From: Candidatus Jettenia sp. AMX2
GTDB lineage: Bacteria > Planctomycetota > Brocadiia > Brocadiales > Brocadiaceae
Assembly: GCA_030583665.1 (NCBI GenBank)
Contig: CP129469.1
Span: forward strand, 3,215,043-3,279,042
Direction: 5' to 3'
DNA: 64,000 nucleotides
The notes beneath the pieces are model-generated. The model did no database searches, was not told the origin of the DNA, and saw only the letters and a program-made list of their open reading frames with translations. Positions 55,052 to 60,577 of the stretch are shown here, piece by piece; within the stretch, counting starts at the first letter, position 1; each line of letters begins with the position of its first letter. A program made the position numbers and the translations under genes.

Positions 55052-55684
55052 TTACTTGCTGTCACCCCACAGTTCCTGAAGACGTTTATCCCGGCCGCAC
55101 GCGTAACGATATAATCTATACCGGTAAGGATTTTTTTTATAAAAGTCCTGGTGATATTCTTCTGCGGCATAGAATGTCGCTGCAGGGGTAATTTCCGTAT
55201 AGATTGTATCGAATTTTCCTGAATCGATCAGTGCCTGCTTTGAGCGTTCGGCCAGCTTTTTTTGCTCTTCGTTGTGGTAGAAAATCCCCGTGCGATACTG
55301 ATTGCCTTTATCGCAAAACTGCCTGTCCTTAACTGTTGGATCGATGTTATGCCAGAAGGCATCGAGCAATTCAGCATAACTGATTTTATTGGGATCATAA
55401 ACAACCTGAACCGCCTCGGCGTGTCCGGTGTTACCTGCTGAAACCTCTTCGTACGTTGGATTTTCTTTATTGCCGCCGGTATAACCTGAGGTGGTTGATA
55501 GAACTCCGTTCAGTTCATCAAAGGGAGGCTCCATGCACCAAAAACAGCCGCCTGCAAATGTTGCCGTGGCAAGCTGTGAACTGTTTCCTTTGCCTGCATC
55601 CCCATAGAGATAACTGAATGACCCTAAGGCAATAAGACAACTTATGAGCGTTAAGTACAGGAACTTATATTTTTTATTTTTCAT
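55052..55684 (-). CDS. msrA: Peptide methionine sulfoxide reductase A, exported
   Basis: This 210-residue protein has a signal peptide over residues 1-29 (LYLTLISCLIALGSFSYLYG), so it acts outside the cytoplasm. ATFAGGCFWCMEPPFDE carries the catalytic Cys, followed by TTSGYTGG, YEEVSAGNTGHAEAVQV and DPTVKDRQFCDKGNQYRTGIFYH. It reduces Met-S-sulfoxide in proteins. It lies beside a secreted protein that is 36 percent Met, a natural substrate. Confidence 0.95.
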   Translation of the reverse strand: MKNKKYKFLYLTLISCLIALGSFSYLYGDAGKGNSSQLATATFAGGCFWCMEPPFDELNGVLSTTSGYTGGNKENPTYEEVSAGNTGHAEAVQVVYDPNKISYAELLDAFWHNIDPTVKDRQFCDKGNQYRTGIFYHNEEQKKLAERSKQALIDSGKFDTIYTEITPAATFYAAEEYHQDFYKKNPYRYRLYRYACGRDKRLQELWGDSK

Positions 55685-55754: not shown

Positions 55755-56147
55755 TTACTTATCCATCATCTCCTTATACATCATTTCCATCATTTTTTGA
55801 TACATATCCATCATGGCTTTCTGGTGTTCCATTTGCATGGCCATCATTTTTTCCATCATTTCCTTCATCTTCTTTTTGTCTTCCGGGTCCATTTTTTCCA
55901 TCATTCCATGCATCATTGGCATCATCGGCATCATACCACCCATCATTCCATGCATCATTGGCATCATACCACCCATCATTGGTGTCATTGGCATCATACC
56001 ACCCATCATTGGTGTCATCCCGTGCAACATGCAACACATCTTCATTTCCTTTTTCATTGGTTCTTTTTCTTTTATTTGCGCCATTGTATTCAATGAACAA
56101 ACGAATATGATAATCATACAAATTACCAATCCTTTTACCATTTTCAT
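55755..56147 (-). CDS. Secreted methionine-rich protein
   Basis: The product has 130 residues from ATG 56147, preceded by GGAGGGG. A signal peptide (residues 1-23, cleavage after NTMA) is followed by a body with 47 Met in total. The centre is built of repeated MMGGMMPM and MMHGMM units (about 44-82), and the C-terminal third is a charged Met-rich helix (KKKMKEMMEKMMAMQMEHQKAMMDMYQKMMEM in part). A CC pair and three His add soft-metal ligands. Likely roles are periplasmic copper binding or a methionine oxidant sink recycled by the msrA product 71 bp downstream. No named family recognised. Confidence 0.8.
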   Translation of the reverse strand: MKMVKGLVICMIIIFVCSLNTMAQIKEKEPMKKEMKMCCMLHGMTPMMGGMMPMTPMMGGMMPMMHGMMGGMMPMMPMMHGMMEKMDPEDKKKMKEMMEKMMAMQMEHQKAMMDMYQKMMEMMYKEMMDK

Positions 56148-56235
56148 GTTTTTCCCCTCCATAAAAAGTACCTGATATGTTATGCACAACATGGTATTCC
56201 GATCCTCTTCCAAAATAATCAGAATACATAAAATA

Positions 56236-57932: not shown

Positions 57933-58847
57933 TTAACCTTTTCCGTGTTTGATAAATGTACCATTATGGTACTCTTCAAAAGCAATCCGTAGTTCGTCTT
58001 TCGTATTCATCACAATAGGACCGTACCAGGCGACCGGTTCTCCAATGGGTTTACCAGACACAAGCAGGAATCTGACTGCATCATCTTCTGTCAGGACCAC
58101 TATCTGATCACCATCATCAAAAAGAACAAGGGTCTCATTGCTTACAAAGGGATCTCTTTGAATATCGAAATAGTTAACGCCTTCAATCTCGTAAGAAAAC
58201 GGTTGCTTTTCCTTGCAAAAGTATCCTTTGCCTTCAATGACATATGCAAAAACGGTATGTCCACATTTTGCCGGATGTATGAATTCCGAATTGGCAGGAA
58301 CTGTTACATCAAGATATTCCGGATCGGTAATGATGTCCCGAACAGGGCCCTGCCTGCCAGCTACTTTACCGCATATGACCCTGACCTTTATGCCATTGTC
58401 AAACACTATTTCAGGGATTTGGTGGCTTTTCACATCCTGATAACGGGGATCCATCATCTTACATGATTTGGGGAGATTGGCCCAGAGTTGAAATCCAAAC
58501 ATCACGCCATTTGCGTCACCTTTGGGCATTTCCTGGTGGATAATCCCACTTCCGGCGGTCATCCATTGTATATCACCGGAGGATATAGTGCCTTTGTTTC
58601 CCATGCTATCACCATGTTCTACATCTCCACGAAGAACATAAGTAATTGTCTCAATTCCACGGTGTGGATGCCATGGGAAACCCTTGATATAATCCTTCGG
58701 CTTGTCTGAGCGGAAATCATCCAGAAGTAAAAACGGGTCAAACACAGGAACCTGACTATTCCCAAATACCCGCTTGAGGTGAACACCTGCTCCTTCTATT
58801 GTAGGCTTGCTTTTTAATACCTTACGGATCTTTCTTGTTTCAATCAT
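57933..58847 (-). CDS. Pirin-family bicupin protein
   Basis: The product is 304 residues. The N-terminal cupin carries the metal-binding motif FPWHPHRGIETITYVLRGDVEHGDS and GSGIIHQEMP, giving the usual His/His/His/Glu ligand set; LWANLPKSCKMMDPRYQDV is the pirin signature. The C-terminal cupin ends at VAWYGPIVMNTKDEL. Some pirins have quercetinase activity; others act as redox sensors. It lies 21 bp downstream of the rhodanese gene on the same strand. Confidence 0.9.
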   Translation of the reverse strand: MIETRKIRKVLKSKPTIEGAGVHLKRVFGNSQVPVFDPFLLLDDFRSDKPKDYIKGFPWHPHRGIETITYVLRGDVEHGDSMGNKGTISSGDIQWMTAGSGIIHQEMPKGDANGVMFGFQLWANLPKSCKMMDPRYQDVKSHQIPEIVFDNGIKVRVICGKVAGRQGPVRDIITDPEYLDVTVPANSEFIHPAKCGHTVFAYVIEGKGYFCKEKQPFSYEIEGVNYFDIQRDPFVSNETLVLFDDGDQIVVLTEDDAVRFLLVSGKPIGEPVAWYGPIVMNTKDELRIAFEEYHNGTFIKHGKG

Positions 58848-58868: not shown

Positions 58869-59189
58869 TTATGGTTCAACAGGATAGCCCGCCTTTTTCC
58901 ATGCGTTCACACCGCCCCCAAGGGCCTTCGCATTCTTGTATCCTTTCTGTATGAACTCTGCTGCCTGACCGGCAGCGCTTGCTTCTTTTGGTCAGCCACA
59001 ATAAAAGACGATCTCCTGCTCCTTTTGTAAAGATGATAACATCGATTTGAATTCTCTCAGTGAAATTGCTCCCTCCAGTTTCATTTGCCTGAACATTGCA
59101 TCGTCGTCATATGCGCAGACAAGGAACGCTGTACCGGATTTCAACTTTTCATGAACTTCCTGTGGAGTGATGCGTGCGGTTTCTGTCAT
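58869..59189 (-). CDS. Rhodanese-domain protein, probable selenoprotein (TGA = Sec66)
   Basis: ATG 59189 opens a frame with TGA at 58992-58994 and continues open to TAA 58869, 106 residues in all. The TGA sits exactly at the rhodanese active-site loop: EIVFYCG-U-PKEASAAGQAAEF, where cysteine homologues have YC.CP. After it come the conserved GYKNAKALGGGVNAWKKAGYP. A perfect 6-bp hairpin with a GGTCA loop starts 15 bases after the TGA, as in bacterial SECIS elements. Sec at a catalytic thiol is the expected pattern. A nonsense mutation would have to hit the catalytic codon and mimic a SECIS by chance. Sulfurtransferase or thiol-redox activity is likely. Confidence 0.8.
58960..58976 (-). promoter_or_regulatory. 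SECIS-like hairpin downstream of the in-frame TGA
   Basis: On the minus strand GCTGCC (58976-58971), loop GGTCA (58970-58966), GGCAGC (58965-58960): a perfect 6-bp stem. The loop begins 21 bases after TGA and opens with GGU, matching known bacterial SECIS rules (guanine in the first two loop positions, apical loop about 16-37 bases from UGA). Confidence 0.7.
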
Positions 59190-59239: not shown

Positions 59240-60577
59240 CTACAGTTTTACCTTAAGATCACTTTTGCATTTCAGATGACCTTCGTGTGGAACAGTTTCA
59301 TGTATCTGAACATCATTATCCATAGCGCAAAGTTTACGAAGAAGCCTTCTATCAACGCATAACCTGAAGAAGACCCGCTTTTCATCAAATTGACTGCTTA
59401 TAATGTTAGCATGCTCATAAAGATAGGAAATCAGTTTTCCGCTACCTGAACTGCACGACAATTCAATATCAACAAACTCCAGTTCAATTATCTCCCTTAT
59501 CCTGCGTTTCAGGTCTGGTATGCCGTAAGATGTTTTTGCAGCAATCAATACAGAATCATCATATTGGTTTTTCAGTAAAGGTATGACAGATTCGTCCTTC
59601 AGGGCATCCATTTTGTTAAATACCATGATTACTGGTTTCTGATCACAACCAAGTTCCTTCAGCACGGTGTTTACTGCATCGATATGCTTTTGTACTTCCG
59701 GTGCACTAATATCCACGACATGGAGTAGCAAATCAGCATTTCTGGCTTCTTCAAGCGTTGCCTTAAAAGAGGCAATAAGATGATGTGGTAATTTCTGAAT
59801 AAAGCCCACGGTATCGCTGACCAGAATCCTTTCTCCGTTTTCCAGGATGCACAAACCGGTCTTTGTATCAAGGGTGGCGAATAGTTTATCTTCAACGAGT
59901 GTGCCGGCATCTGTTAATACATTCATCAGGGTAGATTTTCCAGCATTGGTATAGCCCACAATAGATACGGTAAAAAACTCTTTCCGTGAAATAACCAGCC
60001 GTTCCTGCCGTTTCTCAATTTCATTCAGCTTTTTTTTCAGATGCTGGATTTTTTTTGATATGATACGTTTGTCAACCTCAAGTTGTTTTTCACCAGGACC
60101 CCTTGTTCCGATACCCCCTTCGATCCTGGAAAGATGTGTCCACATCCGCTTTAATCTTGGTCTTGTATATTCCAGCTGAGCCAGCTCAACCTGGAGCTTT
60201 GCCTGAAACGTCTTTGCACGGGTAGCAAAGATGTCCAGTATCAATTCGCTTCTGTCTATTACTTTTTTTCCCGTAATTTTTTCCAGATTTCTTACCTGCG
60301 CCGGGGTTAGGTTATCATCACAAATAAGTACATCTGCATTCAATTCGTCAGCGATTTTTGATAGTTCCAAGGCCTTACCTTTACCAAGATAATATACGGG
60401 GTCAATGCTTACCCTGTTTTGAAATAATGTATGAACAACACTCGCCCCTGCTGTTTCTGTTAATCGCTGGAGTTCTTCCAGCGGTATTTCGCTCCTATGA
60501 CAACTTCCCGGTGTAATCACACAAAAAGGAATGGCACGTTCAGTCCTTACGGTAAATGCAGTATCTTTCAATTTCAA
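59240..60577 (-). CDS. hflX: HflX-type ribosome-associated GTPase
   Basis: The product is 445 residues from TTG 60577, with AGGAGA 12 bases upstream. The N-terminal domain (ADVLICDDNLTPAQVRNLEKI, VIDRSELILDIFATRA, LQVELAQLEYTRPRLK, GGIGTRGPGEKQLEVD) is the HflX signature. G motifs are VGYTNAGKSTLMN (G1), TLDTKTG (G3 region), SDTVGFIQKLPH and VFNKMDAL (G4). It splits or rescues stalled ribosomes under stress. A C-terminal S6-like extension is short. Confidence 0.94.
   Translation of the reverse strand: MKLKDTAFTVRTERAIPFCVITPGSCHRSEIPLEELQRLTETAGASVVHTLFQNRVSIDPVYYLGKGKALELSKIADELNADVLICDDNLTPAQVRNLEKITGKKVIDRSELILDIFATRAKTFQAKLQVELAQLEYTRPRLKRMWTHLSRIEGGIGTRGPGEKQLEVDKRIISKKIQHLKKKLNEIEKRQERLVISRKEFFTVSIVGYTNAGKSTLMNVLTDAGTLVEDKLFATLDTKTGLCILENGERILVSDTVGFIQKLPHHLIASFKATLEEARNADLLLHVVDISAPEVQKHIDAVNTVLKELGCDQKPVIMVFNKMDALKDESVIPLLKNQYDDSVLIAAKTSYGIPDLKRRIREIIELEFVDIELSCSSGSGKLISYLYEHANIISSQFDEKRVFFRLCVDRRLLRKLCAMDNDVQIHETVPHEGHLKCKSDLKVKL

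Follow-up and report, generated by a model that had tools for sequence, protein, structure and literature searches.

The minus strand of a 64,000-nucleotide stretch of Candidatus Jettenia sp. AMX2 DNA (the window) very probably encodes, at 58869..59189, a single-domain rhodanese that contains selenocysteine. The gene comprises 106 codons running from an ATG at 59189 to a TAA at 58869-58871, with one UGA read through. This TGA (codon 66, 58992..58994, minus strand) is the sole internal one, is kept in orthologues and lies inside the rhodanese loop as the original prediction held; that prediction also gave the correct coordinates and left the strand unstated, and their translation on the plus strand yields no open frame. 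From the sequence we infer, with near certainty, that Sec is inserted at UGA66 in the cell. The read-through product is MTETARITPQEV...IVFYCG-U-PKEAS...GGGVNAWKKAGYPVEP, and a GGAGG lies a few nt 5′ of the ATG. It matches the Pfam rhodanese domain PF00581 over residues 8-100 (E 1.1e-8, 35.9 bits versus a gathering cut-off of 22.2) and is predicted to have the rhodanese fold. Gene calling with table 11 lists a single ORF at the locus, the 65-aa frame at 58992-59189, which is the truncated annotation that had been foreseen. Automatic gene finding would cut the gene to 65 residues.

Folds, covariation and frozen third codon positions point to a SECIS hairpin, GCUGCC-GGUCA-GGCAGC, at 58960..58976 (minus strand). 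The 15-nt spacer between the TGA and the stem (CCAAAAGAAGCAAGC), the perfect 6-bp stem and the 5-nt GGUCA loop are all as first described, and the stem-loop is seen in both the MFE and the centroid folds. The fold energy of the 75-nt hairpin region is unremarkable (z -1.45), and this weak thermodynamic score was set aside as proof of a SECIS; covariation and synonymous constraint were used instead. Of the 2412 TGAs in the window, 9 have a comparable stem-loop 10-19 nt past them, defined as a perfect 6-bp stem whose 4-7-nt loop has GG near its start, and taken by itself the hairpin therefore carries little weight. The stem tested for covariation was drawn from the window sequence itself; across 17 sequences it has 96% paired cells, versus 18-59% in slid controls, and three of its pairs have changed on both sides (in 5, 2 and 3 sequences). 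None of 500 shuffles, which ignore relatedness, reaches the covariation score of this set. A second set of 18 sequences gives a stem that is 95% paired with both-sided changes at two pairs, and again no shuffle reaches the score. Third bases at codons +6, +7, +8 and +10 past the TGA, all within the stem and loop, show zero variation among the 9-11 sequences compared, whereas 24 four-fold sites elsewhere average 1.17 bits of entropy. Just past the UGA there thus appears to be a conserved SECIS hairpin with a G in its apical loop, as in bacterial selenoproteins.

The case for more than chance comes from conservation of the TGA, the covarying stem, the frozen third bases and the protein downstream, and not from the hairpin by itself. 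All 11 intact anammox orthologues (the window gene and 10 others at 59-79% identity) share the same TGA codon. It is kept outside the anammox bacteria in MAGs of the Desulfohalobiaceae (L023, 53%) and Synergistales (L024, 47%), and also in other Planctomycetota (L107, L111). Pairwise dN/dS 3′ of the TGA is mostly 0.1-0.4, indicating purifying selection, and the in-frame UGA would therefore be followed by conserved coding sequence in the manner of a bacterial selenoprotein. Cys stands at the Sec position in the homologues L041, L112, L113, L121 and L117, as the original prediction expected, with one exception, a Ser in the long-branch relative L119. A Cys codon might instead have become TGA by nonsense mutation or sequencing error, leaving a pseudogene with a useless 65-residue fragment. 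Such decay does occur in the family: remnants of the gene in G022, G024 and G030 (L038, L039 and L040, respectively) retain the TGA and the stem, with an extra TAA in L039 and L040 and the N-terminal part missing from L038 and L040. A TGA at the first Cys of another relative, L042, in a genome where no selB was found, is likewise in keeping with decay. For the window gene, however, the recurrence of the TGA both among 11 intact orthologues and outside the phylum, the selection past it, the conserved covarying hairpin and a complete Sec machinery make a pseudogene extremely improbable.

The host genome is a single contig of 3.46 Mb, and the presence of hydrazine synthase alpha genes marks its owner as an anammox planctomycete. 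Hydrazine synthase alpha is matched at two places with the same score (G000:C1:383159-383473 and 1143185-1143499), which indicates that this gene is duplicated. The absence of selA, selB, selC and selD from a complete genome would count against reading the UGA as selenocysteine, and the original prediction had proposed a search for them. All are present: selA (493.9 bits), selB (390.6 bits versus a cut-off of 242), a tRNA-Sec with anticodon UCA (67.1 bits) and selD (348.3 bits). The selD gene (L018 1501-2427; G000:C1:170779-171705, minus strand) is itself the TGA-containing Sec form, with the motif CAG-U-AGK, and its own in-frame TGA serves as a control for Sec decoding within the genome.

Among 33 family genomes the intact TGA gene occurs only alongside selB (11 of 11), and selB is found in 11 of the 22 others (one-sided Fisher p 0.0036, a test that ignores phylogeny). 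These 11 selB-positive genomes are devoid of an intact copy, some of the assemblies being incomplete. The Sec-rhodanese is dispensable, since some members of the family lack it or hold a broken copy. L041 in G010 has a CxC loop (TGT...TGC) and no SECIS-like stem, and selB was not found in that genome. G022, also with no selB match, carries the N-terminally truncated L038 with TGA and stem still in place, a state of decay that suggests loss of the rhodanese gene along with loss of Sec decoding. A pattern scan of genome contigs gave only two good relatives, whole-genome searches being far richer. No relative of the window rhodanese was found in the viral contigs searched, and plasmid records hold distant rhodaneses only (21 records, the matches listed being at 32-35% identity).

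The Sec residue probably lies beside the rhodanese cysteine and not in its place. Alignments made with phmmer to 6mxv and YnjE (3ipo) put the conserved rhodanese Cys at C64 (TGT codon at 58998..59000, minus strand), not at residue 66, and C64 is invariant in alignment A2. The AlphaFold2 model (pLDDT 89.7) has a strand at 59-63 with C64 directly after it and the next helix starting at 70, which is the canonical rhodanese layout. The PDB matches listed for the model are rhodanese-domain proteins (GlpE, TM 0.78). In the predicted structure, then, it is C64 that takes the place of the catalytic Cys immediately following the central strand. The active loop reads Y-C64-G-U66-P-K-E, a CxU motif with Sec at Cys+2, so the original claim of a TGA in place of the catalytic cysteine is probably mistaken, the conserved position being occupied by C64. 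Sec66 probably adds a second reactive group beside the retained Cys. It is still conceivable that Sec66 serves as the nucleophile in place of the rhodanese Cys, as first proposed. Sec is a stronger nucleophile than Cys, other listed rhodanese-like selenoproteins carry their Sec in UxxS or UxxG motifs, and the modelled loop is short enough for either residue to act. The invariance and alignment of C64 directly after the strand, together with relatives in which both positions are changed, nevertheless render a nucleophilic Sec66 quite unlikely.

A further cysteine, Cys25 (codon at 59115..59117, minus strand), belongs to an LVCAY motif that is invariant in 14 of the 14 rows of A2. In the AlphaFold2 model it closes strand 21-25, and it sits where other rhodaneses have the Asp of a DxR motif (VIDVRN in L057, VIDIRS in L117). 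C25 may be a third active-site partner, its nearness to the loop being judged from the predicted secondary structure.

At UGA66, SelB on the hairpin 15 nt downstream would deliver Sec-tRNA(UCA) to the ribosome, and translation would continue as far as the TAA at codon 107, yielding a protein of 106 aa whose loop is Y-C64-G-U66-P. C64 would then act as the ordinary rhodanese nucleophile and accept sulfane sulfur in persulfide form. U66, which lies two residues away, would most likely attack this persulfide (or an oxidised C64); sulfide would be freed or the sulfur handed on, and the resulting Cys-Sec selenenylsulfide would be reset by a thioredoxin-type reductant. C25, which is invariant and ends a neighbouring strand, may participate. 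Persulfide reduction or transfer at C64/U66, with a role in redox or sulfur stress, is put forward tentatively, its likelihood falling a little below even. Chief among the rivals is a broader function, in which the rhodanese fold serves a thiol/selenol oxidoreductase or a peroxide/nitrosative-stress enzyme and sulfane sulfur is not the substrate. CxU and UxU resemble the redox pairs of known selenoproteins, CAY stands in place of DxR, and the neighbours in several relatives include pirin, WrbA-like, thioredoxin-like/TPR and HtrA-like proteins. Such an enzyme is somewhat unlikely, however, given the intact rhodanese Cys position and the solved folds listed as matches, which are those of rhodanese-domain proteins.

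The UGA could also act as a selenium switch, with a 65-residue product having its own role when selenium is poor and the full protein being made when it is rich. Termination competes with insertion at Sec codons, with 30-40% recoding in vivo as reported in PMC4513850. The 65-residue part, however, would stop inside the active-site loop and lack the C-terminal helices of the model, and nothing points to a separate role for the short form, which makes a switch very improbable.

Relatives of the window gene carry other forms of the loop besides CxU. Four genes from other Planctomycetota, L114 (G321), L115 (G198), L116 (G083) and L118 (G078:C96:59497-59805), have TGA at both positions, reading FY-U-x-U-P. 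A SECIS-like stem follows the second TGA, being a perfect 6-bp stem in L114 and L115 and weaker in L116. selB is present in G321, G083 and G078 and was not found in G198, an assembly that is 85% complete. These relatives have an apparent double-selenocysteine active site, with Sec at the catalytic-Cys position and at Cys+2. The string 'UxU' is absent from the text of PMC13188914. The occurrence of UxU, CxU and CxC at the same two positions suggests redox chemistry at both. On balance we favour, by a modest degree of confidence, an unnamed rhodanese subfamily defined by an invariant LVCAY-type motif and a two-position Cys/Sec loop, running from CxC through CxU to UxU, in which the UxU forms (L114, L115, L116, L118) would carry Sec at the nucleophile and at Cys+2 under one SECIS. 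If so, the series is a natural test of why enzymes adopt one or two selenocysteines, and its presence in one small clade offers a testable case for the contribution of Sec to sulfane-sulfur chemistry. A candidate Sec/Cys swap (UxC), L042 (G031:C1:1628003-1628314), would be a CxC rhodanese but for a TGA at its first Cys. It was rejected because no SECIS-like stem is visible by eye and no selB was found in G031, and its TGA is most likely a nonsense mutation or an assembly error.

Rhodanese selenoproteins with a CxU loop are already catalogued, as COG0607 form 2 (PMC9312934) and as 'Rhodanese-like domain-containing protein form 3', NF041203 rhodanese_LYCAU (PMC13188914); the two are apparently the same, since they share an example accession. 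The original prediction of a selenocysteine rhodanese is strongly supported as to Sec; the kind was already listed, which its author did not know, and the window gene extends it. NF041203 proteins share with the window protein a single rhodanese domain and a TGA-encoded Sec in a Cys-x-Sec active loop (YCxU, here FYCGU). This is the nearest family, yet the window protein scores 70.9 bits and fails the curated cut-off of 115. All 14 clade members (A2) fall under that cut-off and were judged by E-values (best 6.9e-20), and none of 392 genomes from the phylum reaches it. DxR is kept in the LYCAU-like rows L057 and L068, whereas the window clade has LVCAY instead. In the tree, drawn with midpoint rooting and with L117 as a long branch, a 100/98 branch parts the LVCAY rows from the LYCAU-like rows and a DedA fusion. 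L057 and L068, although they have the TGA, were rejected as clade members on DxR and tree. By score, motif and tree, the window protein is placed as a CxU-kind rhodanese selenoprotein that is sister to NF041203 and not a member of it.

GlpE has a DxR motif and is not known to carry a second chalcogen at Cys+2, where the window protein has Sec. The fold and the catalytic Cys position of this single-domain thiosulfate sulfurtransferase (NF001195; PDB 1gmx) are the same, and the window protein scores 31.4 bits against its cut-off of 102. DedA-rhodanese fusions with YCACPNE (WP_258285231.1, Burkholderia pyrrocinia) carry C-x-C at these two positions and then P-N-E-x-S-A, but differ in an annotated DedA membrane domain, in Cys for Sec and in keeping DxR (VIDIRS). 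Rhodanese-like selenoprotein forms 1, 2 and 4 (PF00581, UxxS or UxxG; PMC13188914) also have a Sec-containing rhodanese domain; their listed motif is without a Cys two residues before Sec, whereas the window protein keeps C64. No report of anammox selenoproteins was found in the open literature searched, and the deep-Sep paper mentions no rhodanese. The window gene adds a selenoprotein well supported by sequence to the anammox bacteria.

The rhodanese gene is followed, after a 21-nt gap, by a pirin-family gene on the same strand (57933..58847, minus strand; Pfam PF02678/PF05726), and the two are likely co-transcribed. Upstream, across a 50-nt gap, lies a gene for an HflX-like GTPase (59240..60577, minus strand; Pfam GTP-bdg_N/M, MMR_HSR1). 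HflX was not found among the neighbours of rhodanese orthologues, so this linkage is not conserved. In several relatives a pirin gene is also present, some 1-2.5 kb 3′ of the rhodanese, and a 150-aa thioredoxin-like/TPR protein is encoded 3′ of it in seven of the relatives looked at. Named from reading their sequences, a pyruvate:ferredoxin oxidoreductase-like protein is found upstream in three relatives, and a WrbA-like flavodoxin-type protein and an HtrA-like protease are also found nearby. Because the neighbourhood is not fixed, context gives no substrate.

The window rhodanese is about 80% identical to its orthologue in G011, which is from another genus, and 65% identical to that of the congener G001. 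The HflX protein of the window shows the opposite order, with 76% identity to G001 and 72% to G011. This contrast could mean either that the rhodanese, perhaps together with pirin, was acquired laterally or that two old lineages exist. Further along the minus strand, a Met/Gly-rich low-complexity ORF (MMGGMMPMTPMMGG...) at 55755-56213 lies next to the gene for methionine sulfoxide reductase A (55052-55684, minus strand) and possibly encodes a metal-binding protein or a substrate of Met oxidation.
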